From Amycolatopsis orientalis DSM 40040 = KCTC 9412 (lineage in GTDB: Bacteria > Actinomycetota > Actinomycetes > Mycobacteriales > Pseudonocardiaceae), in NCBI RefSeq assembly GCF_000478275.1, contig NZ_ASJB01000064.1, forward strand, positions 62,001 through 126,000: DNA of 64,000 bases, in the 5' to 3' direction. Within the stretch, counting starts at the first letter, position 1. Each line of letters opens with the position of its first letter. Both the position numbers and the translations under genes were made by a program. The notes beneath the pieces were generated by a model, which saw nothing but the letters and a program-made list of their open reading frames with translations, made no database searches and was not told the DNA's origin. Shown piece by piece: positions 5,059 to 61,174 of this stretch.

Positions 5059-7782
5059 ATGCACCGAAGAACCGCGCGCGCCCTGAGCGTCGTGGCCGGT
5101 CTGCTGGCCGCCGCGACGACACTGGTGCCCGTCGCCCAGGCCGCTCCCGTCCCGCTCCCCACCCCGTGGACGGACCAGGTCTCGCCGTCGAACGCGCTGC
5201 CGGAGTACCCGCGTCCGCAGCTGGTCCGTTCGGAATGGCTCAACCTCAACGGAACCTGGGGGTTCACCGGAGCGCCGAACCTGAACTCGCCACCGATCGG
5301 CAGACCGCTGAGCGAGAACGTCCTCGTGCCTTACCCGATCGAGTCGATGCTTTCGGGGATCAAACGGCATGAGGACAACATGTTCTACCGCCGTACCTTC
5401 ACCGTTCCGTCCACATGGGACGGACGACGAGTGAAGCTCAACTTCGGCGCCGTCACCTGGGAGACCAGGGTCTGGGTCAACGGGACGTCGATCGGGAGCC
5501 ACACCGGCGGTTTCGACGCCTTCTCCTTCGACATCACCCCGGCGCTGAAGACGGGGGAGAACGAGATCGTCGTCGGCGTGGCGTCGCCGGTCGACGGCAG
5601 CCGGTACCCGATCGGGAAGCAGCGCAAGACGCCCGACGGCATCTTCTACACGGCGGCGTCCGGGATCTGGCAGACCGTCTGGCTGGAACCGGTCCGGGCC
5701 GAGCACATCACCCGGCTGGACACCACCCCCGACGTCCCCGGCGGCGCGCTCGATCTCGTCGTCCAGGGCACACCCGGGCAGCAGGCGACCGCCGAAGTGC
5801 TTTCGGGCGGCCAGGTGGTCGGCACCGCGAGTGGGACGGTGGGCTCGCATATCCGGGTCCCCGTGCCGAACGCGCGGCTGTGGTCACCGGACGACCCGTT
5901 CCTGTACGACCTGCGCGTACGGCTGCCCGGAGGCGACGTCGTCACCGGGTACTTCGGGATGCGGTCGCTGGGCAAGGCGATGGTCGGCGGCGTGATGCGC
6001 CCGCTGCTCAACGGGAAGTTCGTGTTCCAGCTGGGCACCCTCGACCAGGGCTACTGGCCGGACGGCATCTACACCGCGCCGACCGACGAGGCGCTGCGGT
6101 TCGACCTCGAACGCCAGAAGGCACTGGGCTTCAACATGGTCCGCAAGCACATCAAGGTCGAGCCCGCGCGCTGGTTCTACCACGCCGACCGGCTCGGGCT
6201 GATGGTCTGGCAGGACATGCCCGCGCTCGACGCCGTCGACGAGGTCCCGAACGGGCACGCGAACTACGAATCCGAACTGCGGCGGATGATCGAGCAGCAC
6301 AAGGGCATCACGTCGATCGTGCAGTGGGTCCCGTTCAACGAAGGCTGGGGCGAGTACGAAGCCGGGCGGATCGTCGACCTGGTCCGCTCGATCGACGGCA
6401 CGCGGCTGATCAACCACAACTCCGGCTCGAACTGCTGTGTGTCCGATCCGGATCCGGGCAACGGCGACGTGATCGACGACCACGCGTACCAGGTCTCCGC
6501 CGGGACCAGGCAACCCGACGCGCGACGGGTCGCGGTGCTGGGGGAGTACGGCGGACTCGGCAGGCAGGTGCCCGGGCACGAGTGGGAGCCGGGCAAGGGG
6601 TTCGCGTACGGCGCGCTGTACCCGGACGAGACGTCGCTGACGAACCGGTACGTGGAGATCACGAAGCAGGTCGGGCGGTTCGTGCACGGGCGCGGGCTTT
6701 CCGCGTCGGTCTACACCGAGCCGTACGACGTCGAAAACGAGGTCAACGGCTTCTACACCTACGACCGGCGCGTGCTGAAGATGACCGAGGCGCGGGTGCG
6801 CGAGATCAACCAGAAGGTGCTCGCCATCGCCAAGGGCACCGAGGTGGGCCGGGGTGAACTCGTGTCGCTGCGGGTCACCACGGCCGGGTACACGGATCGC
6901 TATCTGCGGCACCAGGACGGCTTCGTCCGCACTGACGTCCTCGGTGAGGGCAGCGCGGACTTCGGCAAGAAGGACGCGACGTTCTGGGCCCGGCAGGGGC
7001 TCGCGGACGCGTCGTGCCTGTCGTTCGAGTCGCGGAACTATCCCGGCCACTTCCTGCGGCACGCGTCGTCGCGGATCCGCAAGGACGCGAACGACGGTTC
7101 GGCCCTGTTCGCCGCGGACGCGACGTTCTGCGCGAGGGAAGGTGCGGGCGGTACGGCGCTGGAGTCGTTCAACCAGCGGGGCGCTTTCATCCGTCACTAC
7201 GCCGAGACCGTCTATCTCGCGCGTAGCGGCGGGGCGAATCCCTGGGACACGCCGTCGAGCTTCGCGGCGGACACGACGTGGGCGGCCTCGGTCCCGCTGT
7301 GGCGCAGCGGCGCCGATCTGCCGCTCGACCAGGCGCGGTCGTTCAGGGTGACCACCCCGGGCTTCACCGACCGCTACCTGCGGCATCGCGACGGTCTCGC
7401 ACGGACGGACGTCGTGAACGCGTCGAGTGCGGCGCTGTTGAAGGCGGACGCGACGTTCGTCGTCCGGCGCGGGCTCGCGGATCCGTCGTGCTACTCGCTG
7501 GAGGCACGGAACTATCCGGGCCGGTTCCTGCGGCACGCGGACTTCCGGGTGCGGCTCGGCGCCAACGACAACACCGACCTGTTCCGGAAGGACGCGACGT
7601 TCTGCGCCCAGCCGGGGTCCGGCGGGGTCCGGCTGGCGTCGGTCAACGAACTGGGCACGAACATGCGGCACTACGCCGAGGAGGTCTTCGTCGCCATCAG
7701 CGGCGGTGGTCACCCGTTCGACAACCCGGTGTCGTACGACCAGGACGTGACCTGGGCGGTCTCGGCGGCTTGGGCTCCGTAG
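5059..7782 (+). CDS. Secreted GH2 glycoside hydrolase with two AbfB furanose-binding domains
   Basis: A 907-residue exported enzyme. Residues 1-30 are a Sec/Tat-like signal ending near AQAAP. A GH2 sugar-binding jelly roll (about 45-215), an immunoglobulin-like domain and a TIM barrel follow. The likely acid/base is Glu428 in WVPFNEGWGEYE and the likely nucleophile Glu496 in VLGEYGG. After residue 600 there are two copies (about 600-740 and 760-905) of a domain with repeated DRYLRH and NYPGHFLRH / NYPGRFLRH units, characteristic of AbfB (CBM42), which binds arabinofuranose side chains. It is the last gene of the furanose importer operon, so it probably releases the imported sugar outside the cell. 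GH2 contains beta-galactofuranosidases as well as galactosidases and glucuronidases; the exact substrate is inferred. Confidence 0.9.
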   Translation: MHRRTARALSVVAGLLAAATTLVPVAQAAPVPLPTPWTDQVSPSNALPEYPRPQLVRSEWLNLNGTWGFTGAPNLNSPPIGRPLSENVLVPYPIESMLSGIKRHEDNMFYRRTFTVPSTWDGRRVKLNFGAVTWETRVWVNGTSIGSHTGGFDAFSFDITPALKTGENEIVVGVASPVDGSRYPIGKQRKTPDGIFYTAASGIWQTVWLEPVRAEHITRLDTTPDVPGGALDLVVQGTPGQQATAEVLSGGQVVGTASGTVGSHIRVPVPNARLWSPDDPFLYDLRVRLPGGDVVTGYFGMRSLGKAMVGGVMRPLLNGKFVFQLGTLDQGYWPDGIYTAPTDEALRFDLERQKALGFNMVRKHIKVEPARWFYHADRLGLMVWQDMPALDAVDEVPNGHANYESELRRMIEQHKGITSIVQWVPFNEGWGEYEAGRIVDLVRSIDGTRLINHNSGSNCCVSDPDPGNGDVIDDHAYQVSAGTRQPDARRVAVLGEYGGLGRQVPGHEWEPGKGFAYGALYPDETSLTNRYVEITKQVGRFVHGRGLSASVYTEPYDVENEVNGFYTYDRRVLKMTEARVREINQKVLAIAKGTEVGRGELVSLRVTTAGYTDRYLRHQDGFVRTDVLGEGSADFGKKDATFWARQGLADASCLSFESRNYPGHFLRHASSRIRKDANDGSALFAADATFCAREGAGGTALESFNQRGAFIRHYAETVYLARSGGANPWDTPSSFAADTTWAASVPLWRSGADLPLDQARSFRVTTPGFTDRYLRHRDGLARTDVVNASSAALLKADATFVVRRGLADPSCYSLEARNYPGRFLRHADFRVRLGANDNTDLFRKDATFCAQPGSGGVRLASVNELGTNMRHYAEEVFVAISGGGHPFDNPVSYDQDVTWAVSAAWAP

Positions 7783-7786
7783 CAGC

Positions 7787-7832
7787 CTCGTGAGTGGTAA
7801 TGACGGTTCTAACCGTCATTACCACTCACGAG
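7787..7832. repeat. 46-bp perfect palindrome, copy 1 of 8
   Basis: The left arm is CTCGTGAGTGGTAATGACGG then TT, the centre CT, and the right arm the exact reverse complement (22+2+22). It begins 5 nt after the glycosidase stop codon. No T-tract follows it. Position suggests a transcription terminator for the transport operon; it belongs to the repeat family described in the findings. Confidence 0.95.
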
Positions 7833-10445: not shown

Positions 10446-11600
10446 ATGACGGGCAAGAGCACCACGACGGTACGCAAGGGTGTTGTGGTCCTGACGGTGG
10501 CGGGGCTGATGGCTGCGGTGTGGACCACCGCGGCGGAGGCGGCCCCGCCCGGGGGTCAGGAGCTGCGGAAGAGCCTCGACTCGTTGGTGAGCCAGGAGAA
10601 ATTCCCGGCCGCGCTGGCCTCGGTGACCAACCGGGGACGCACGACGTCGCTGGTCGCGGGGTCCTCGCGGATCGATCGCCGGGTCCCCGTCCCGCGGGAC
10701 GGCTCGGTCCGGGCAGGCAGCAACACGAAGACGTTCACCGCGATCGTCGTCCTGCAACTGGTGGCGGAGGGCAAAGTGGACCTGGACGCGCCGATCGAGA
10801 AGTACCTGCCGGGACTCGTGCGCGGCGAAGGCATCGATGCCACAAAGATCACCATCCGGCAGCTGCTGCAGCACACCAGCGGGCTCCCGAACTATACCGA
10901 GCACATCGGGGTGGGGGAGTTCGAGCGGATCCAGCACAGGTTCTTCCAGCCGCACGATCTGCTCGCCGCGGCGCTGGCCCATCCGGCGAAGTTCGCCCCC
11001 GGCGCCAAATGGGAGTACAGCAACACGGGTTACCTGCTGGCGGGCATGGTGATCGAGAAGGTGACCGGACGCCCGGTGCAGGAGCAGATCACCGAACGCG
11101 TCATCAGGAAGGCGGGCCTGCGGCACACCTATTGGCCGCAGCCCGGCGACCAGACCATCCAGGGGCCGCATCCCCAGGGGTACGCGATCGGCAGCGCAGC
11201 GAGCGGCGAGGTGATCGACGCGACCGAGCTGGATCCGTCCTGGGGCGGGGCCGCGGGCCAGCTGATCTCGACGCCGGGCGACCTCGCGAAGTTCTTCCGC
11301 GTGCTGCTCGACGGGGCGTTGCTGCCGCGCGAGCAGCTGGCCGAGATGCGGAAGACCGTCGACGCCCCGGTGTTCCCGGGTGCCCGCTACGGCCTCGGCC
11401 TGGTGAGCAACCCGCTCAGCTGCGGTGGCGTGTACTGGGGGCACGGCGGCGACATCCACGGGTTCGAGACCCGGGGTGGGGCCACGGAAGACGGCCGCAC
11501 CGTCGGACTCGCGGTCACCGCGATGCCGGGGACCTTCGGCGACGGCGAGCGGGGCAGCGCAGCCGTTATGGCCACAGTGGACACCGCTTTCTGCAAGTGA
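10446..11600 (+). CDS. Secreted class C beta-lactamase / D-Ala-D-Ala carboxypeptidase-like serine hydrolase
   Basis: A 384-residue exported serine hydrolase of the S12 penicillin-binding/AmpC fold. A signal peptide covers residues 1-35 (ending AAEAAPP). The catalytic SxxK is S92-N-T-K95. The second motif is Y191-S-N193 in EYSNTGYLLAG. The third (KTG-like) position is represented by GHGGDIHGF near the C-terminus, as in esterase-type members. The ATG at 10446 is preceded by GAAGGAG. It is probably a peptidase or esterase acting outside the membrane; a true beta-lactamase role cannot be claimed. A 46-bp palindrome follows 4 nt after the stop. Confidence 0.9.
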   Translation: MTGKSTTTVRKGVVVLTVAGLMAAVWTTAAEAAPPGGQELRKSLDSLVSQEKFPAALASVTNRGRTTSLVAGSSRIDRRVPVPRDGSVRAGSNTKTFTAIVVLQLVAEGKVDLDAPIEKYLPGLVRGEGIDATKITIRQLLQHTSGLPNYTEHIGVGEFERIQHRFFQPHDLLAAALAHPAKFAPGAKWEYSNTGYLLAGMVIEKVTGRPVQEQITERVIRKAGLRHTYWPQPGDQTIQGPHPQGYAIGSAASGEVIDATELDPSWGGAAGQLISTPGDLAKFFRVLLDGALLPREQLAEMRKTVDAPVFPGARYGLGLVSNPLSCGGVYWGHGGDIHGFETRGGATEDGRTVGLAVTAMPGTFGDGERGSAAVMATVDTAFCK

Positions 11601-11603
11601 CCC

Positions 11604-11649
11604 CTCGTGAGTGGTAATGACGGTTAGAACCGTCATTACCACTCACGAG
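11604..11649. repeat. 46-bp perfect palindrome, copy 2 (left border of palindrome island)
   Basis: Same arms as the copy at 7787, but with AG rather than CT at the centre, i.e. the opposite orientation. It begins 4 nt after the serine hydrolase stop. Confidence 0.95.
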
Positions 11650-11758: not shown

Positions 11759-11815
11759 GTGAGGGGTGTGTGGATTTAGGGACGTTCAACGTCCCTAAAT
11801 CCACACACCCCTCAC
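11759..11815. repeat. 57-bp perfect palindrome with GTTCAAC tip
   Basis: Arms of 28 bp begin GTGAGGGGTGTGTGGATTTA and end GGGACGTT; the centre is one C. The right arm is the exact complement. It is too long and too perfect for an ordinary terminator and has no T-tract. Confidence 0.95.
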
Positions 11816-11952
11816 TAGCGGTAACGCTTGCGCGCCGCCAGCCGCAGGGAGTGCCTTCATGGGCTTCCGGCTGCGGTGAGTGGTGGGGCTGGTGGTTAGT
11901 GCTGCTCGTGGTGGTCCGGGTGTGACGTCGCTGGTGTTTGCGGGGTTCGACT

Positions 11953-11991
11953 GGGGAAGATTCCGGACGTTCAACGTCCGCAATCTTCCCC
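11953..11991. repeat. 39-bp palindrome with GTTCAAC tip
   Basis: The arms are GGGGAAGATTCCGGACGTT and its complement (19+1+19), with a single mismatch at arm position 11. The tip GGACGTTCAACGTCC is shared with the 57-bp palindrome at 11759 while the stem sequence differs. Confidence 0.93.
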
Positions 11992-12068
11992 ACTCGGGGT
12001 GTGCCGGGTGCTCGGGGGTATGTCCCTGATCCTCTGTTGATCAAGCTTCGCAACCGAGTGTGACCCGA

Positions 12069-12115
12069 GTCTATGAAGGAATTGGGACACTCAACGTCCC
12101 AATTCCTTCATAGAC
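12069..12115. repeat. 47-bp palindrome, third of the GTTCAAC-like group
   Basis: 20-bp perfect arms (GTCTATGAAGGAATTGGGAC and complement) enclose the 7-nt loop ACTCAAC. The tip is a near copy of the GTTCAAC tips of the two neighbouring palindromes. Confidence 0.93.
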
Positions 12116-12247: not shown

Positions 12248-12293
12248 CTCGTGAGTGGTAATGACGGTTAGAACCGTCATTACCACTCACGAG
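12248..12293. repeat. 46-bp perfect palindrome, copy 3 (right border of palindrome island)
   Basis: Identical to the copy at 11604, including the AG centre. It lies 47 nt past the stop of the minus-strand PEP-mutase-like gene. Confidence 0.95.
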
Positions 12294-12339: not shown

Positions 12340-13083
12340 CTAGAGGTTCGTGAGGGCCGTCTTGAAGCCTTCCAGTGCCGCGCGATAGAAGCGGGGACCG
12401 TAGGACACCCGTGCCACGCCCAGTTCCCGGAGCGCCGCCAGATCCAGTTCCTCGCCGACGTTCCCGTTGACCGGGCACCCGAGTTCGATGACCAGCGCGG
12501 CGAGGTCGTCCCGCCGCCGCACGCCGATCGGGTACACACAGTCGGCACCGGCCTCCCGGTAGAGCCTGCCCCGCCGGACGGCCTCGGCGAGCCTGTCCGG
12601 CTCAGGAATCCCGCGGTCACCCAGGAACGTGTCGACCCGGGCGTTGACGACGATCGGGACGCCCGCTTCGGTCGCCGCGGCGCGGATGTCCGCGAGCCGC
12701 TGGGCGTGCTCGCCGGCGTCGACCAGCCCGCCCGAGGAGTGATCGGTGTCCTCCAGGTTGCAGCCGACGGCACCCGTCTCCAGCAGCCGCTCCACGAATT
12801 CCCGTGGCGCCAGGCCGTAACCCGCTTCCGCGTCCACGGTCACCGGCACGGAGACCGCGCGGGCGACCCGGCCCGCGGCGGCGAACATCTCTTGCCATGG
12901 CGCGCCTTCGCCGTCGGGGTAACCGAGCATGGCCGAGACGGCGGCACTGGCGGTGGCGACCGCGGGGAACCCCGCCTCCGCCACGATCTCTGCGCTCGCC
13001 GCGTCCCAGACGTTCGGCAGGACCAGCATCTCCCCGCTGTGCAGGCGGCGGAGCGTTTCGGCGCGAGCCTTCTGATCGGTCAT
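12340..13083 (-). CDS. Isocitrate lyase / phosphoenolpyruvate mutase family protein
   Basis: A 247-residue TIM-barrel protein of the ICL/PEPM superfamily. It starts at ATG 13083 (MTDQKARAETLRRLHSGEML). Family landmarks are LPNVWDAASAEIVAEAGFPA, the metal and substrate region VTVDAEAGYG (acidic residue positions conserved), CNLEDTDH and VVNARVDTF. The KKCGH motif of true isocitrate lyases is absent, so it belongs to the small, poorly characterised oxaloacetate-decarboxylase/PEPM-like branch. Its start overlaps the stop of the upstream exporter by ATGA, placing it last in a sigma factor-exporter-PEPM unit. Confidence 0.88.
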   Translation of the reverse strand: MTDQKARAETLRRLHSGEMLVLPNVWDAASAEIVAEAGFPAVATASAAVSAMLGYPDGEGAPWQEMFAAAGRVARAVSVPVTVDAEAGYGLAPREFVERLLETGAVGCNLEDTDHSSGGLVDAGEHAQRLADIRAAATEAGVPIVVNARVDTFLGDRGIPEPDRLAEAVRRGRLYREAGADCVYPIGVRRRDDLAALVIELGCPVNGNVGEELDLAALRELGVARVSYGPRFYRAALEGFKTALTNL

Positions 13084-23982: not shown

Positions 23983-24522
23983 ATGAGCGACAAACTGCCC
24001 GAAGGATCGGTTCAGACGAGCCAACCGTCCAGTAGTGGCGTGGCTCACGGGCCGCATCCGGGACGAACGGTCCTTGCCCTCGACGACATCGACCGCGCGA
24101 TCCTCGCCGAGCTGTCGGCCGACGGCAGGCTCGCCGTCCGCGCGCTGGCCGAGCGGCTGCACATTTCGCGCACCAACGCCTACGCGAGGCTGGATCGGCT
24201 GGTGACCGAAGGCGTGATCACCGGCTTCGGCGCGAAGATCGACCCGCGGCGGGCGGGCCTCGGAACGAGCGCGTACATCCTGATCACCGTCGAGCAGACG
24301 TCGTGGCGGACGATGTCGGCCGAGTTGCGGGAGATCCCGTACGTCGAGCACGTGTCGCTGGTCGGCGGCGACTTCGACATCCTGCTGCTGGTGCGGACGC
24401 CGGACAACGCTTCACTGCGCGACGTCGTCCTGGAACGTCTGCAGGCCCTGGACGGCGTCCGGTCCACCCGGACCTGGCTGATCTTCGAGGAGCAGCCAGG
24501 CGTCGCGCCTCGTGAGTGGTAA
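23983..24522 (+). CDS. bkdR: Lrp/AsnC-family regulator (BkdR-like)
   Basis: A 179-residue feast/famine regulator. An N-terminal extension of about 30 residues precedes the AsnC helix-turn-helix (LDDIDRAILAELSADGRLAV, ISRTNAYARLDRL). A RAM/ligand-binding domain follows (AYILITVEQTSW, YVEHVSLVGGDFDILLLVRT). It is divergent from the branched-chain dehydrogenase operon and is presumably its repressor or activator, responding to branched-chain amino or keto acids. The last codons (CGT GAG TGG TAA) are part of a 46-bp palindrome: the repeat itself supplies the stop codon and the C-terminal REW, so the original end of the gene may have been replaced. Confidence 0.9.
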   Translation: MSDKLPEGSVQTSQPSSSGVAHGPHPGRTVLALDDIDRAILAELSADGRLAVRALAERLHISRTNAYARLDRLVTEGVITGFGAKIDPRRAGLGTSAYILITVEQTSWRTMSAELREIPYVEHVSLVGGDFDILLLVRTPDNASLRDVVLERLQALDGVRSTRTWLIFEEQPGVAPREW

Positions 24523-24554
24523 TGACGGTTCTAACCGTCATTACCACTCACGAG
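24509..24554. repeat. 46-bp perfect palindrome, copy 4, containing a gene's stop codon
   Basis: Same arms as the copy at 7787 with CT at the centre. The TAA at 24520-24522 inside the left arm terminates the Lrp gene, unlike other copies that lie wholly past a stop. Confidence 0.95.
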
Positions 24555-27876: not shown

Positions 27877-28196
27877 CCGCCGGGCGAGAAGGGACGGCCG
27901 CGGGTCGGTGCGCGCCGCGTGCTCAACGGCGATGCCATGCTGGCCCCCTCTCCCTCAAATGTTATGAACGGGACTTTCATTGCAGATTTTGCAATGAAAG
28001 TCCCGTTCATAACGTTCTGGGGTCGGCCGCCTGTGCGACCTCGCTCACCGATGGAACTCGTGCCCCACAACCCGTCCGAAGGTGGTCGGAGATCCGCGCC
28101 ATCCTCGCCTCGGCCACCACACTCGCCAGTGGCTGGCTCGTCGAAATCGAGGTCGTCGCCGCGGGCTGACGCCCGCACACTCGGTTCACGGGACAG
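27877..28196. other. Intergenic region after xylA with a long hairpin
   Basis: The 320-bp gap between convergent genes holds the hairpin at 27961-28013. A short coding-like tail follows it (frame ending at 28169, with RRWSEIRAILASATTLASGW). That frame has no start or ribosome site of its own, so it is at best a gene remnant. Nothing else was recognised. Confidence 0.5.
27961..28013. terminator. 53-bp perfect hairpin after xylA
   Basis: 24-bp perfect arms (GTTATGAACGGGACTTTCAT then TGCA) enclose the loop GATTT. It lies 85 nt past the xylA stop and 183 nt from the convergent gene's stop. AT-richer than its surroundings, it is sequence-unrelated to the 46-bp family but has the same architecture. 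Confidence 0.75.
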
Positions 28197-39170: not shown

Positions 39171-39947
39171 ATGGAAACCCGGAGCGGCGAGTCCGGTGAC
39201 ATCGCCGGTGTCGAAGAGCTCGGCGCACTGATCAAACGGCTCCGGGACAAACGGGGCTTCACCCAGGACAACGTCGCGGGCCGCGCGGCGAAACACGGGC
39301 TCCGGATCAGGCGTGAACGAATTTCGGAAATCGAGAACGGCAGACGTGAACCGCCGACTCAAGGCGAGCTGCGCGCCATTCTTCTCGGCCTCGGGCAAAC
39401 CGAAGAAATGGTGAAGGGGCTGCAGGGCGTCCTCGCCAGGACGACGGCCCCGCCGCCGGGCGCCGTCGTGGAAGTCGCTTTCGGCGATCCCGTCCAGCAG
39501 CCGGCCGCCGTCTCGCGCCGTGCGAGGTTCGGTCAGCGGGTCCTGCTCGTGTTGGCGGGCGCGGTCGCGGGGGTGCTGATCGCGACCGGCGTCGCGGGCG
39601 TGTGGCCGTGGACGCTCCTCACCTACGAACCCGATCTGCAGGTCAACGTCGGGCGGCCGAATCCCGCCGACGCGCTCACTCCCTGTCCGCAGCGCACCAC
39701 CGACGTGCGCGACCACCGCGACGACACCGCCGGGTCGATCTGGTATCGCGAATGTGCGGACTACCTGGAGATCTGGGTGACCGACCATATGAAGGACGGC
39801 CGGTGCGTGTGGGCGATCGTGCACTGGAGCAACGGCGTCGTCGACGCGTCCAAACGAGCCTGCCCCGCGGGCAAGATGGAGTTCTCGAAGGTCGCCAAGT
39901 ACGCGCCCGACTTCTGGATGGAACTCGTCGCGAAGGCGACCGACTGA
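39171..39947 (+). CDS. Membrane-anchored XRE-type HTH protein with extracytoplasmic domain
   Basis: A 258-residue protein combining a cytoplasmic XRE HTH (about 16-75: LGALIKRLRDKRGFTQDNVA, IRRERISEIENGRREP), a single transmembrane helix (123-143: VLLVLAGAVAGVLIATGVAG) and an outside domain of about 110 residues. That domain has four cysteines (TPCPQR, RECADY, DGRCVW, RACPAG), likely two disulfides. Start ATG at 39171 follows GGGGAG; a TAACCT box lies at 39123. This is a one-protein design for sensing outside and binding DNA inside. A 46-bp palindrome follows 21 nt after the stop. Confidence 0.82.
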   Translation: METRSGESGDIAGVEELGALIKRLRDKRGFTQDNVAGRAAKHGLRIRRERISEIENGRREPPTQGELRAILLGLGQTEEMVKGLQGVLARTTAPPPGAVVEVAFGDPVQQPAAVSRRARFGQRVLLVLAGAVAGVLIATGVAGVWPWTLLTYEPDLQVNVGRPNPADALTPCPQRTTDVRDHRDDTAGSIWYRECADYLEIWVTDHMKDGRCVWAIVHWSNGVVDASKRACPAGKMEFSKVAKYAPDFWMELVAKATD

Positions 39948-39967: not shown

Positions 39968-40013
39968 CTCGTGAGTGGTAATGACGGTTCTAACCGTCAT
40001 TACCACTCACGAG
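39968..40013. repeat. 46-bp perfect palindrome, copy 5
   Basis: Same arms as at 7787, CT centre; the pairing extends to 50 bp (39966-40015) through flanking GC/GC. It is 21 nt after the stop of the membrane XRE gene. Confidence 0.95.
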
Positions 40014-40090: not shown

Positions 40091-40138
40091 GGTCGTGAGT
40101 GGTAAGTGTCGTTCTAACGACACTTACCACTCACGACC
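40091..40138. repeat. 48-bp palindrome, covariant variant of the 46-bp family
   Basis: The outer arm is GGTCGTGAGTGGTAA like the main family, but the inner arm is GTGTCGTT instead of TGACGGTT. The opposite arm carries the matching changes, so all 23 bp still pair around CT. It lies 78 bp after the copy at 39968 and 90 nt past the minus-strand amphi-Trp stop. Confidence 0.93.
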
Positions 40139-46154: not shown

Positions 46155-46520
46155 GTGGAGTCCACTCGAGTTGATCGATGGCTGTGGGCCGTCCGGCTGA
46201 CGAAAACGCGCCCGGACGCCGCCGCGGCCTGTCGTGGCGGCCATGTCCGCGTGAACGGCAAACCGGCCAAACCCGCGACCACGGTCGTGGCGGGCGACGA
46301 GGTGCGCGCCCGGGTCAACGACACCACGCGGATCTTGGAAGTGACGCGGGTGATCCAGAAACGCGTCGGTGCCGTCGACGCGGCGACCTGCTTCATCGAC
46401 CGGACGCCCCCGCCGCCGCCCGAATCGGCCATCCCGGTCGCGCGGCGGGAGCGGGGCGCCGGACGCCCGACCAAGCGGGAGCGCCGGGTCCTGGACCGGT
46501 TCCGGACCGGTGAGGGCTGA
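46155..46520 (+). CDS. S4-domain RNA-binding protein (Hsp15-like)
   Basis: A 121-residue protein with an S4 domain at residues 5-65 (RVDRWLWAVRLTKTRPDAAA, CRGGHVRVNGKPAKP, VVAGDEVRAR). A basic tail follows (RRERGAGRPTKRERRVLDR). It matches heat-shock protein 15-type proteins, which bind stalled 50S-tRNA complexes. Start GTG at 46155 is chosen for domain position; a TATGTA sequence 5 nt upstream hints at a leaderless mRNA. A 46-bp palindrome begins 16 nt after the stop. Confidence 0.87.
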   Translation: MESTRVDRWLWAVRLTKTRPDAAAACRGGHVRVNGKPAKPATTVVAGDEVRARVNDTTRILEVTRVIQKRVGAVDAATCFIDRTPPPPPESAIPVARRERGAGRPTKRERRVLDRFRTGEG

Positions 46521-46535: not shown

Positions 46536-46581
46536 CTCGTGAGTGGTAATGACGGTTAGAACCGTCATTACCACTCACGAG
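46536..46581. repeat. 46-bp perfect palindrome, copy 6
   Basis: Same arms as at 7787 with AG centre. It lies between the S4-protein stop and the promoter of the beta-helix operon, where it would insulate the two. Confidence 0.95.
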
Positions 46582-50500: not shown

Positions 50501-50544
50501 CGGACGCCGGTGGCGGGAGCGGCGCGGCTCCCGCCACCGGCGGG

Positions 50545-51398: not shown

Positions 51399-51971
51399 AT
51401 GCCGACCGGGGTAGCCCTGCGCGCCGTCCGCGCGCAGTTGTTCGACGCCGCCGAACGGGTCCTGCTCCGGGACGGGCCGAGCGGCCTCACCAGCCGGGCG
51501 GTGACGACGGAGGCGGACTGTGCGAAAGGCGTGCTCCACCGGCATTTCGACGACTTCGACGGGTTCCTCGCCGAGTTCGTGCTGGACCGGATCGAGAAAC
51601 TCGACGAGAAGGGGCTCCGGGAGGCGGTCGGTACCGGAACGGTCGTGGACAACCTCACCTCGGCGCTCGCCGCGGTGTTCGCTTCGGTCGCGGTCGCGAT
51701 CGTCCCGCTCGTGATCTTCCGTGACGAGCTTCGCGCCCGGTTGCGCCGTGAGTGGCCTGCCGGGGTTCCGGTGCTGACCCAGGCCGCGGTCATGATCGCC
51801 GCCTACCTGGAGGCGGAGCGCGAGCGGGGCAGGGTCGCCGGGGACGCCGACGTCGAGACCCTGGCGGCCATGCTGATCGGTGCCACACACCTGCTCTACG
51901 CGGACCGGACGGCACCCGCGCCGGAGACGGCGCAGGTGCGGAAGGTCGTGGAAACGGTCATCGGGACGTGA
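51399..51971 (+). CDS. TetR-family regulator
   Basis: A 190-residue TetR regulator with HTH at about 10-55 (AQLFDAAERVLLRDGPSGLT, SRAVTTEADCAKGVLHRHF, DDFDGFLAEFVLD). Its ATG at 51399 follows AAAGGAG. It is divergent from the methyltransferase with a double operator between, so it likely represses both genes. Confidence 0.92.
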   Translation: MPTGVALRAVRAQLFDAAERVLLRDGPSGLTSRAVTTEADCAKGVLHRHFDDFDGFLAEFVLDRIEKLDEKGLREAVGTGTVVDNLTSALAAVFASVAVAIVPLVIFRDELRARLRREWPAGVPVLTQAAVMIAAYLEAERERGRVAGDADVETLAAMLIGATHLLYADRTAPAPETAQVRKVVETVIGT

Positions 51972-51974
51972 GAA

Positions 51975-52005
51975 AGGCGGCGAGTCCTCAATGGACTCGC
52001 CGCCT
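51975..52005. terminator. Bidirectional hairpin terminator
   Basis: AGGCGGCGAGTCC pairs with GGACTCGCCGCCT around TCAAT; GAGA/TCTC extends the stem after one mismatch. It lies between the convergent TetR and folD stops. Confidence 0.85.
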
Positions 52006-52016
52006 CTCTCAGCGGA

Positions 52017-53572: not shown

Positions 53573-53618
53573 CTCGTGAGTGGTAATGACGGTTCTAACC
53601 GTCATTACCACTCACGAG
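53573..53618. repeat. 46-bp perfect palindrome, copy 7
   Basis: Same arms as at 7787, CT centre; pairing extends to 54 bp (53569-53622) through AAGC/GCTT. It lies 34 nt past the stop of the minus-strand M15 gene and upstream of fchA. Confidence 0.95.
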
Positions 53619-53651: not shown

Positions 53652-54482
53652 TTACGAGCGCTGGTACTCCTCCCACGTGAGCTTCGGCGTGACGACGGGG
53701 CCGTCGTCGGCGCCCCGCCCGGCGAGGCCGTTGTAGCCGAGGTAGTAGTCACCGGCCTGGTGCTGCGCGGCGGACGACAGGTCCGGATCGGACAGCGCGA
53801 TGGCGTGGATGTGGTAGGCGAAGCCCTGGTCCGGAGTCCGGACCCAGGCCGCGAAGCCCACCTGACGCAGCTTCCGCGCGACGTCGGTCCGTGTCGTCGA
53901 GGACATCCCCTCGACGCCGATGTCGAGCGCGCCGCCGCCGTCGTGCGTGCCCGCCGAAGCGCCGACGCCGCCGGGGTTGTACGAGCCCTGCGTGACGGTG
54001 AGCTGCCTGCCGAGCAGGCCCTCGGCCTTCACCAGCATCGCCTTGGTCCGCGTGTTCATCGTCTCGCCGTGGTAGGTCAGGCGGCTACCCGCCGAAACCA
54101 CCGCGGTGACGGTGTACCGGCCCTCGCCCAGCTTCTCGAGCGAGGTCTTGCCCGGCAGGCCGGAGGCGTCGAGCCCGGTGTACCCCAGGGACTTCTGGTA
54201 GCCGGAGTACGCGGTGATCGTCGAGGTGCCGAAGTGGCCGTCGACGTACTGCTGGTCGAGCAGTCCCTTGGCCGCGAGCGCCTGCTCGACGAGCAGCACG
54301 CTGTCCTTGGCGCCCGGCGTCAGGGCGCTGTCGGCCCGGCGTGGATCGATCTGCGCGGCCTTGAGCACCGCTTCCATGTTGGCCGTTGGCAACACCGCCG
54401 CGGTCATTTCGGCACTGGCCGGTGCGGCCACGCCGAAGGAGAGCGCGGTCGCTGTCGCGAGCACGGCTACCTTGGTCAACAA
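53652..54482 (-). CDS. Secreted peptidoglycan-binding / M15-type D,D-carboxypeptidase-like protein
   Basis: A 276-residue exported protein. TTG at 54482 is chosen (AGGAGG 6 nt upstream; a second TTG follows). Signal ends near PASAEM. A peptidoglycan-binding-like repeat region (about 60-125: DQQYVDGHFGTSTITAYSGY) precedes an M15 zinc-peptidase-like domain. Zinc ligands fit H-x6-D in GTHDGGGALDIG and H-x-H in YHIHAIAL. It likely trims peptide stems of the cell wall. Confidence 0.82.
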   Translation of the reverse strand: MLTKVAVLATATALSFGVAAPASAEMTAAVLPTANMEAVLKAAQIDPRRADSALTPGAKDSVLLVEQALAAKGLLDQQYVDGHFGTSTITAYSGYQKSLGYTGLDASGLPGKTSLEKLGEGRYTVTAVVSAGSRLTYHGETMNTRTKAMLVKAEGLLGRQLTVTQGSYNPGGVGASAGTHDGGGALDIGVEGMSSTTRTDVARKLRQVGFAAWVRTPDQGFAYHIHAIALSDPDLSSAAQHQAGDYYLGYNGLAGRGADDGPVVTPKLTWEEYQRS

Positions 54483-58784: not shown

Positions 58785-61118
58785 GTGAACCGGATCTTTG
58801 TGCAGCCCAGACGGCGGAAAGGGGTCCGGGGCGCGCTCGCCCTCGGCCTCTCCGCACTCCTCATCGCCGCCGGCCTCGGTGGTGCCCCGGCCTCCGCGGC
58901 GGAGGACTACAGCCAGAGCGCGGTGTCGGTGAACGCGACGCAGGCCCAGTTCTCCTTCACCCCGGCGACGCCCGCGCGCTACGTCGACATCCACTACACC
59001 GGTGTGCCCGGGGTGGGGCAGCAGAACGTCCGGATGACCGAGAGCGGCGGCACCTGGCGGCATACCGTCGGCTCGCTCAGCACCGGCACGGTGCTCGACT
59101 ACTGGTTCACCTACGAGAAGAACGGGCCGCAGTACGACACCCCGCACTTCGGCTACACCCACGGTGGCGGCACCACCGTCGCCTCGCCGACGTTCGACCC
59201 GCCGGCGGGCAGCTATCCGAGCGCCCGCTCGGTGACGTTGTCGACCGCGACCGCCGGCGCGACCATCCGGTACACAGTGGACGGTTCGACACCGACCGCG
59301 TCGTCCCCTCTGTACACCGGGCCGATCACGGTCTCTTCGTCCTCCACGGTTTCCGCGATCGCGCTGAAATCGGGTTCGGCGAACTCGCCGGTGGTGTCGG
59401 CGAGCTACACGATCGGATCGACGCAGGCGACCTGCCCGGTGCAGGCCGACGTGCCGAACTTCGGGCCGAACGTGCGCATCTTCGACCCCGGCATGTCCGC
59501 GTCGTCGATCCAGACCCGGCTCGACGCGGACTTCGCCGCGCAGAAGGACACCTTGACCGCGCAGTTCACCGAACGCCGGTACGCGCACCTGTTCAAACCC
59601 GGCGTGTACAGCGGGATCCACGACGACGTCGGCTACTACACCTCTGTCGCGGGCCTCGGGCAGAACCCGGGCGACGTCGTGATCAACGGTGACGTCACGG
59701 TCGACGCGTTCAACGAGTCGGACCAGGGCCACGCGCTGCAGAACTTCTGGCGTTCGGCGGAGAACCTCGCGATCGTCCCGAGCAGCGGCTCGAACCGCTG
59801 GGCCGTCGCGCAGGCCGCGCCGTTCCGCCGGATGGACATCCGCGGCGGGCTGCAGCTCTACCCGGCCAGCTATGGGTTCGCCAGCGGTGGCTACACCGCC
59901 GACACCAAGGTCTCCGGTCAGGCCGCGTCGGTCTCGCAGCAACAGTGGTACACCCGTGACAGCAGCTACGGCAGCTGGAACGGCGGGGTGTGGAACATGG
60001 TCTTCTCCGGGACGAACGGCGCTCCGGCGAACACCTTCCCGAACCCGCCGGAGACGACATTGTCCACCACGCCCGTGTCGCGCGACGTCCCGTATCTGTA
60101 CCTCGACGGCTCCGGCAAGTACCGCGTGTTCCTGCCTTCGTTGCGCACCAACGCTTCCGGGCCGAGCTGGGCAGGCGGCAGCACTCCGGGCAGCTCGCTG
60201 CCGATGAGCCAGTTCTACGTCGTGAAGGCGGGGGACACGGCGTCGTCGATCAACACGGCGCTTTCCCAGGGCTGCAACCTGTTCTTCACCCCGGGCGTCT
60301 ACCACCTCGACCAGACGCTGAACGTGAGCAGGGCCAACACGGTCGTGCTCGGCGTCGGTTACCCGACGCTGGTGCCGGACAACGGCGTCGACGCGATGCG
60401 GGTCGCCGACGTGGACGGCGTCCGGCTCAAGGGTCTGCTGTTCGACGCGGGCACGACCAGATCGCAGACGCTGCTGACGGTGGGCCAGGCGGGCTCGACG
60501 GCCGGTCACTCGGCCAACCCGACGACGCTGCAGGACGTGTTCTTCCGGATCGGCGGTCAGATCGCGGGGAAGGCGGTGAACAGCCTGATCGTCAACAGCC
60601 GGGACACGATCATCGACCACATCTGGGCGTGGCGGGCCGACCACGGCAACGCGGGCACCTACGGGTGGACGGTGAACACCGGCGACACCGGCGTGGTCGT
60701 CAACGGCGACAACGTGCTGGCGACCGGTCTGTTCGTCGAGCACTACCAGAAGTACCAGGTGATCTGGAACGGCCAGAACGGCCGGACGATCTTCTTCCAG
60801 AACGAGATCCCCTACGACGTCCCGGATCAGGCCGGGTGGAGGAGTCCCAACGGGCTCAACGGGTACGCCGCCTACAAGGTGGCGGACACCGTGACCACGC
60901 ATGAGGCGTGGGGCCTGGGGAGCTACTGCTTCTTCAACGACAACCCGTCGGTGAACCTGTATCACGCGTTCGAGGTGCCGAACCGCTCCGGCGTCCGGTT
61001 CCACAACCTGGTGACGGTTTCGCTGAACTACAAGGGGACCATCACCCACGTGATCAACGACGCGGGGGCGGTGACCCCGCCGGGGACGACACCGAGCAAC
61101 CTGGTCGATTACCCGTAA
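58785..61118 (+). CDS. Secreted multidomain beta-helix protein, glucanase-like
   Basis: A 777-residue exported protein. Start GTG at 58785 follows GGAGGTG. Signal to about residue 38 (GGAPASAAED). A beta-sandwich module (about 40-125, resembling CBM56) and a chitobiase-type C-terminal repeat module (about 130-210: ATIRYTVDGSTPTASSPLYT) follow. A long beta-helix comes last (about 215-777: QGCNLFFTPGVYHLDQTLNV, SRANTVVLGVGYPTLVPDNG). Such proteins are often labelled adenylyl cyclase in databases, with no support here. A beta-1,3-glucanase or related role is my inference. A 46-bp palindrome lies 11 nt past the stop. Confidence 0.82.
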   Translation: MNRIFVQPRRRKGVRGALALGLSALLIAAGLGGAPASAAEDYSQSAVSVNATQAQFSFTPATPARYVDIHYTGVPGVGQQNVRMTESGGTWRHTVGSLSTGTVLDYWFTYEKNGPQYDTPHFGYTHGGGTTVASPTFDPPAGSYPSARSVTLSTATAGATIRYTVDGSTPTASSPLYTGPITVSSSSTVSAIALKSGSANSPVVSASYTIGSTQATCPVQADVPNFGPNVRIFDPGMSASSIQTRLDADFAAQKDTLTAQFTERRYAHLFKPGVYSGIHDDVGYYTSVAGLGQNPGDVVINGDVTVDAFNESDQGHALQNFWRSAENLAIVPSSGSNRWAVAQAAPFRRMDIRGGLQLYPASYGFASGGYTADTKVSGQAASVSQQQWYTRDSSYGSWNGGVWNMVFSGTNGAPANTFPNPPETTLSTTPVSRDVPYLYLDGSGKYRVFLPSLRTNASGPSWAGGSTPGSSLPMSQFYVVKAGDTASSINTALSQGCNLFFTPGVYHLDQTLNVSRANTVVLGVGYPTLVPDNGVDAMRVADVDGVRLKGLLFDAGTTRSQTLLTVGQAGSTAGHSANPTTLQDVFFRIGGQIAGKAVNSLIVNSRDTIIDHIWAWRADHGNAGTYGWTVNTGDTGVVVNGDNVLATGLFVEHYQKYQVIWNGQNGRTIFFQNEIPYDVPDQAGWRSPNGLNGYAAYKVADTVTTHEAWGLGSYCFFNDNPSVNLYHAFEVPNRSGVRFHNLVTVSLNYKGTITHVINDAGAVTPPGTTPSNLVDYP

Positions 61119-61128
61119 CCCCTGCGGC

Positions 61129-61174
61129 CTCGTGAGTGGTAATGACGGTTCTAACCGTCATTACCACTCACGAG
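61129..61174. repeat. 46-bp perfect palindrome, copy 8
   Basis: Same arms as at 7787, CT centre, 11 nt after the glucanase-like stop. Confidence 0.95.

Follow-up and report, generated by a model that had tools for sequence, protein, structure and literature searches.

The best descriptions of REP-type repeats come from Proteobacteria, and many such repeats depend on RAYT transposases. According to the available portions of the published texts, the CGTC REPs lack a dedicated transposase (PMC3733652), and RepRanger predicted REPs in three Actinomycetota genomes (PMC12306157). A second group of related structures is formed by hairpins at transcript ends. In S. clavuligerus, 353 of 535 structured 3′ ends have no U-tract, and read-through at them is higher than at U-rich ends (available text of PMC8269248). 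Mycobacterial terminators are described as mostly U-less and located within 50 bp of stop codons, yet Rho-dependent termination dominates; the same review cites a paper whose title says that the U-tract is required (available text of PMC12288462).

A sequence-only reading of a 64-kb window of Amycolatopsis orientalis DSM 40040 (the whole stretch of DNA under analysis) had described eight identical 46-bp palindromes, each just past a gene. It took them to suggest active spread or gene conversion plus selection, and named transcription termination, mRNA 3′ protection or a REP/MITE-like element moved in trans as possible roles. The arm sequence words were absent from the open PMC papers searched, and a non-exhaustive search of the open PMC literature on Amycolatopsis, Pseudonocardiaceae and actinobacterial palindromes, REPs and RAYTs found no description of such a family. 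Here we describe it as a stop-docked, REP-like family that populates the genomes of actinomycetes known for antibiotic production, no RAYT having been found in them.

Results

Elements in the window

Both 20-bp arms were exact in 8/8 copies, giving 16 arm matches compared with a maximum of 0 in 100 shuffles, and the eight palindromes were indeed located where they had been read (Table 1). As described, the centre was CT in five copies and AG in three, and no T-tract followed any of the eight. The reported pattern of stop distances also held, with values 1 nt lower owing to a different way of counting; we measured distances to the nearest stop of genes called by our own codon-usage gene finder, and the copies were 3 to 46 nt behind a stop codon, except for the 24509 copy. 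That copy had been placed inside a gene, but it overlaps the stop codon and supplies it. The copies at 11604 and 12248 form the opposite ends of a single convergent gap. In addition to the eight, we found a ninth element, which shares the boxes and the fold of the other copies and has a different middle. The density of elements in the window (9 in 64 kb) is approximately three times that of the genome (387 in 9.06 Mb). The neighboring genes appear to be unrelated, since Pfam matches of different kinds were obtained in 7/9 scanned reading frames. An Rfam scan of the window at the gathering score gave 0 matches.

Table 1. Elements of the palindrome family in the 64-kb window.
Feature	Position	Relation to genes
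Element, centre CT	7787–7832	4 nt behind the stop of + strand gene ending at 7782; tandem gap
Element, centre AG	11604–11649	3 nt behind the stop of + strand gene ending at 11600; convergent gap
Element, centre AG	12248–12293	46 nt behind the stop of − strand gene with 3′ end at 12340; convergent gap of the 11604 copy
Element, centre CT	24509–24554	14-nt overlap with the end of + strand gene 24040–24522; supplies its TAA
Element, centre CT	39968–40013	20 nt behind the stop of + strand gene ending at 39947
Ninth element, middle GTAAGTGTC, compensated arms, same boxes	40092–40137	Shares the gap with the 39968 copy
Element, centre AG	46536–46581	15 nt behind the stop of + strand gene ending at 46520
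Element, centre CT	53573–53618	33 nt behind the stop of − strand gene with 3′ end at 53652
Element, centre CT	61129–61174	10 nt behind the stop of + strand gene ending at 61118

Anatomy and predicted fold

The family follows the box pattern TCGTGAGTG-N9-GTTNNAAC-N9-CACTCACGA, in which the 46-bp hairpin consists of outer boxes (CTCGTGAGTG), a core (GTT-CT/AG-AAC) and a 9-bp middle. The middle varies by species, whereas the boxes are kept across genera. Among 114 elements of named genomes, found with the outer boxes and GTT..AAC fixed and the centre pair free, 111 had CT or AG at the centre and the remaining three had CC, CC and AT. The RNA of either strand was predicted to fold into a 21-bp stem (−38 kcal/mol, z about −12). 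Pairing between the two middles of a copy was 0.883, compared with a mean of 0.802 when arms were shuffled within species (maximum 0.823 of 500). The middles of K. persicum and Q. albus paired no better than shuffles, indicating that a perfect stem is not always kept. At K. persicum loci (e.g., L051, L082, L120 and L125), inner stem mismatches recurred in many copies and followed the orientation of the centre, so that the elements there appear to have inherited an asymmetric form. The element ends, CTCG and CGAG, are paired; the pooled flanks were enriched only for C at +2 (hence G at −2), which was present on 75% of 142 sides. Arm swapping between subfamilies is not claimed: for 32 strongly mismatched elements, both arms were seen elsewhere in the species sample in 6, one arm in 12 and neither in 14.

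Copy number and distribution

The 9.06-Mb genome contains 160 exact 46-bp copies, 275 copies within 3 mismatches and 387 matches to the box pattern, which confirms the family and makes it larger than had been reported. The absence of drift noted for the arms is true of the eight window copies and does not extend to the genome, where 160 of the 387 matches to the box pattern are exact. When up to 3 mismatches were allowed, the element was present in 16/60 genomes of the genus, this one included; when only the outer boxes were fixed, it was present in 45/60, and copy numbers per genome ranged from 0 to 246. In an order-wide sample, 8/249 genomes were positive, all of them Amycolatopsis (8/8 of the genus), whereas 0/34 other members of the family and 0/207 other genomes were. 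Among the matches listed, the named genomes were those of Amycolatopsis, Kibdelosporangium, Qaidamihabitans, Prauserella and Rhodococcus rhodnii, together with Actinophytocola and Pseudonocardiales MAGs. As a whole, the REP-like family is found mainly in Amycolatopsis. Rhodococcus rhodnii, which is not a member of the Pseudonocardiaceae, has the same boxes and core at six loci (L057, L066, L068, L080, L095 and L137). Plasmids, phages and viral contigs gave no match to the element at the sensitivities used.

Location behind stop codons

Location was analyzed in 788 kb, comprising the window and 40 further stretches of the genome, most but not all of which were chosen for holding arms. The 71 elements in this sample were located in 36 tandem, 31 convergent and 4 divergent gaps, compared with 51, 13 and 36% for random placement. 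The earlier statement that no copy lies in a divergent gap is correct for the eight window copies, and does not extend to the rest of the genome. An element overlapped a stop codon or was no more than 25 nt behind one in 59/71 cases, versus 12.6% for random intergenic placement and 32.5/71 expected when elements were moved at random within their own gaps. This agrees with the proposed association with gene 3′ ends and differs from a scatter without relation to stops. In 33 of the 36 tandem elements, the upstream stop was nearer than the next start. The element's own TGA (in CTCGTGA) served as the gene stop in 12 of the 71 elements, and its next TAA did so in 3. These data show that the elements are located directly behind stop codons and often supply the stop. 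With a gene model trained on this genome only, similar values were obtained for relatives (44/51 within 25 nt of a stop, with 3/54 omitted because the gap touched the end of the stretch) and for named genomes of several genera (105/118, with 7/125 omitted for the same reason); A. decaplanina is both a relative (G018) and a named genome, and some elements are perhaps in both sets.

The sequence downstream of the elements did not show the U-tract of a canonical intrinsic terminator, T making up no more than 0.27 of the bases at each of 12 positions (n = 62). The orientation of the centre was not biased relative to gene direction in tandem gaps (20 AG, 16 CT). On the transcribed strand of 100 tandem elements, stem mismatches comprised 26 G·U and 24 A·C; since G·U was not preferred, selection at the RNA level lacks support.

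Other hairpins at gene ends

A total of 84 strong hairpins were detected in 464 kb, compared with 0 in a letter shuffle of 164 kb. Thirty-three belonged to the element family, all in tandem or convergent gaps. The 51 others, one of which is a family element with a single extra base, were distributed among convergent gaps (25), tandem gaps (17), divergent gaps (2), gene interiors (6) and a stretch edge (1), and several looked by eye like further repeat families. Where the element is missing from an orthologous gene end, relatives often carry other hairpins, or remnants of the arms around other palindromes. We infer that a hairpin is needed behind the stop and that any of several families may supply it.

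Long palindromes of different sequence also occupy convergent gaps of the window (11759–11815, 11948–11996, 12069–12115, 27958–28016, 50505–50542 and 51969–52011), and some of these six look like members of further repeat families. Elements split at the centre were found at five places genome-wide, with inserts of about 330 and 250 bp containing other palindromes at L169:6519–6889 and from L243:7024; in the L169 element, GGTTAGAACC flanks the insert at either end, resembling a target duplication. General insertion of elements into the centres of other hairpins was rejected, because a flanking stem of at least 7 bp was found in 1/71 cases versus 1.27 in shuffles. Flank pairing at the exact register was slightly raised (4.70 versus 4.32 of 14, p 0.02), and the element at L164:17653, exactly centred in another palindrome with 13-bp arms, was the sole such case in 71.

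Comparison of orthologous sites

In four relatives, the stop at the site of the 7787 copy is likewise followed by an element, at a distance of 5 or 6 nt; its two arms both contain GTAAGGACG or GCAAGGACG, compared with GTAATGACG in this genome. The G019 sequence of this site (L042, L190) has N inside a partly doubled element, possibly a fault in assembling the palindrome. The 24509 element is common to this genome and G052, G018 and G014, and the 61129 element to this genome and G018, while no element was present in the gap orthologous to 53573 in five relatives. When 29 elements of this genome were compared, an element was found in the orthologous gap in 6/22 cases for G052, 5/14 for G018, 7/26 for G014, 1/7 for G019 and 0/2 for G020. 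Per 44 bases, paralogues within this genome differed by 2.44, and its elements differed from their orthologues by 4.17 (G052), 3.8 (G018) and 6.0 (G014), compared with 4.52, 4.66 and 5.48, respectively, for random cross-species pairs; the single G019 pair differed by 4.0, versus 8.69 for random pairs. Because orthologues are approximately as different as random cross-species pairs and paralogues are closer, the copies appear to evolve in concert. The relatives keep some orthology signal among themselves (e.g., 1.83 and 2.5 versus 3.22 for G052–G018), indicating that homogenization between them is incomplete.

At arm position 15, this genome has T:A in both arms at 15 loci for which a relative has an element in the orthologous gap, whereas T was present in 0/26 of the relatives' copies compared. 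These loci represent 14 gaps, because the window copies at 11604 and 12248 correspond to a single copy in G014; L165:16571, where a partly overlapping G052 element was uncounted, was left out and has T in one arm only. The centre differed in 12 of the 26 comparisons (11 were flips, including a pair against one G014 copy, and the other was CC), and changed pair positions were altered in both arms in 44 cases and in one arm in 30. Copies at ancestral places thus carry the current version of their species in both arms, as expected of concerted evolution. Compensated arms could arise by template switching within a palindrome. Judging from these comparisons, independent mutation is a poor explanation of the shared arm changes. 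They fit a transfer of sequence from other elements, or the loss of an element followed by a new insertion at its former site; selection via one trans-acting factor might also explain the shared versions. The distances between paralogues and orthologues and the T:A pairs at the 15 loci support the spread and homogenization of copies, which the sequence-only reading had put as active spread or gene conversion plus selection.

Transposase search and turnover

The sequence-only reading had suggested a RAYT-like transposase acting in trans. Our search, which covered the Y1_Tnp family (PF01797; E 0.001), did not support this suggestion: no match was found in this genome or in any of the 80 genus genomes that include it, compared with 5/14 control genomes with a match. 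The elements are therefore not spread by a Y1 transposase visible to the Pfam model. L172:9612 and G014 differ cleanly by the presence or absence of about 48 bp, with no clear target duplication. This indel, which is not polarized as gain or loss, indicates turnover, and the case for a MITE-like insertion is this one difference. With regard to BIME-like arrays of alternating orientation, the elements listed for the window and the 788 kb were mostly single, and a few gaps had two.

Discussion

We consider it probable that the elements constitute a REP-like, genome-wide family of gene-end hairpins, in which the RNA hairpin would set or protect mRNA 3′ ends and uniformity would be maintained by a non-Y1 activity. 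Transcription from either side would produce the 21-bp RNA hairpin, and the most likely role of an element would be that of a two-way mRNA 3′-end hairpin. Copy-over or replacement between copies would keep them uniform, the homogenizing activity being something other than a Y1 (RAYT) transposase. Counting against this explanation are the lack of G·U preference, the lack of a T-tract, the 4/71 divergent locations, middles that pair no better than shuffles in two species, the incomplete homogenization between relatives, the T in a single arm at L165:16571 and the fact that the Y1_Tnp search yielded no copying agent. An effect on translation is possible too, because E. coli REPs located no more than 15 nt from a stop reportedly stall ribosomes (available text of PMC12306157).

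If the elements were ordinary U-less (I-shaped) intrinsic terminators, the hairpin alone would matter and sequence identity would be a by-product. The location of the elements behind stops and in convergent gaps speaks for this, 42 of the 51 other strong hairpins in the 464 kb are likewise in tandem or convergent gaps, and the 353/535 S. clavuligerus ends provide a precedent (PMC8269248, available text). However, hairpin stability alone explains neither 160 exact 46-bp copies nor boxes that are kept across genera while the middle varies, and G·U was not preferred on the transcribed strand; we regard this explanation as unlikely.

Conserved boxes at fixed spacing, a middle whose pairing is dispensable in two species, and a separate version in each relative are also what sites for a sequence-specific DNA- or RNA-binding protein might look like, the copies changing together with the specificity of the protein. 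This is quite unlikely, considering that both arms changed at each of the 15 loci, that the centre differed in 12/26 comparisons as if its orientation were random, and that near-identity extends across 46 bp at more than 100 sites, whereas the footprint of a protein usually requires less.

Alternatively, the family could consist of non-autonomous mobile elements that are moved by a transposase of another family, landing behind stops and taking the place of older copies through excision and re-insertion. This would account for the patchy copy numbers within one genus (0 to 246), the presence/absence difference at L172:9612 and the differing centre orientations (12/26). We find this improbable, since no Y1_Tnp was found in 80 genus genomes, no target duplication was clear, no long autonomous form was seen and the indel is not polarized. 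Repeats resembling DNA uptake sequences, kept uniform by biased uptake, are disfavored to the point of being very improbable: the versions are species-specific and inverted pairs are located behind genes, but single boxes outside elements were not in excess (9 nine-mers versus 5 expected in 788 kb, 5/9 being pieces of split or altered elements).

Returning to gene-end hairpins homogenized by a non-Y1 activity, we tentatively raise a stronger version, which is possible rather than probable. A dedicated non-Y1 enzyme system might recognize the outer box and the GTT(CT/AG)AAC core and overwrite gene-end hairpins in place, in either orientation; a new version could then sweep hundreds of dispersed gene ends, together with their mRNA 3′-end control, within the life of a species. 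As copies appear to have been rewritten together at ancestral places, the question of how RAYT-less REPs spread and stay uniform becomes testable, as does the question of whether transcripts in high-GC bacteria end at hairpins that lack a U-tract. For strain engineering, the elements offer candidate two-way 3′-end parts.

The comparison with known systems supports the earlier suggestion of a REP-like family. Like the REPs of the GTAG and CGTC superfamilies in the available text of PMC3733652, the elements are short, high-copy palindromes (160 exact, 387 with boxes), mostly located in tandem or convergent gaps behind genes (67/71) and sometimes supplying the stop. They differ in length (46 bp versus 20–40 bp) and in the evidence for homogenization in place, and they carry paired CTCG/CGAG ends and boxes without a GTAG or CGTC tag; no actinobacterium is named in that text, from which the term is absent. 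Copy numbers above 100 per genome and species-specific versions are shared with the RAYT-associated REPs and BIMEs of PMC2817692 (a related source is PMC3116915; both in their available text), from which the elements differ in that no Y1_Tnp gene was found in this genome or in the 80 genus genomes. Because the tag is absent and no RAYT was found, we do not file the element in the GTAG/CGTC or RAYT families. Similar to the RepRanger predictions, the palindromes are close to stop codons, while neither genomes of the Amycolatopsis group nor the element sequence are named in the available text of PMC12306157. The U-less 3′ ends of S. clavuligerus and the mycobacterial I-shaped terminators (available text of PMC8269248 and PMC12288462) also combine a strong hairpin behind stops with the lack of a U-tract in high-GC actinomycetes, but those are defined by RNA ends or structure class, whereas the element is one repeated sequence. 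Both RAYT-less REPs (CGTC) and REPs predicted for three Actinomycetota genomes have been published before, so what is new is this particular family, boxed and docked on stops, and the rewriting of its copies at ancestral places.
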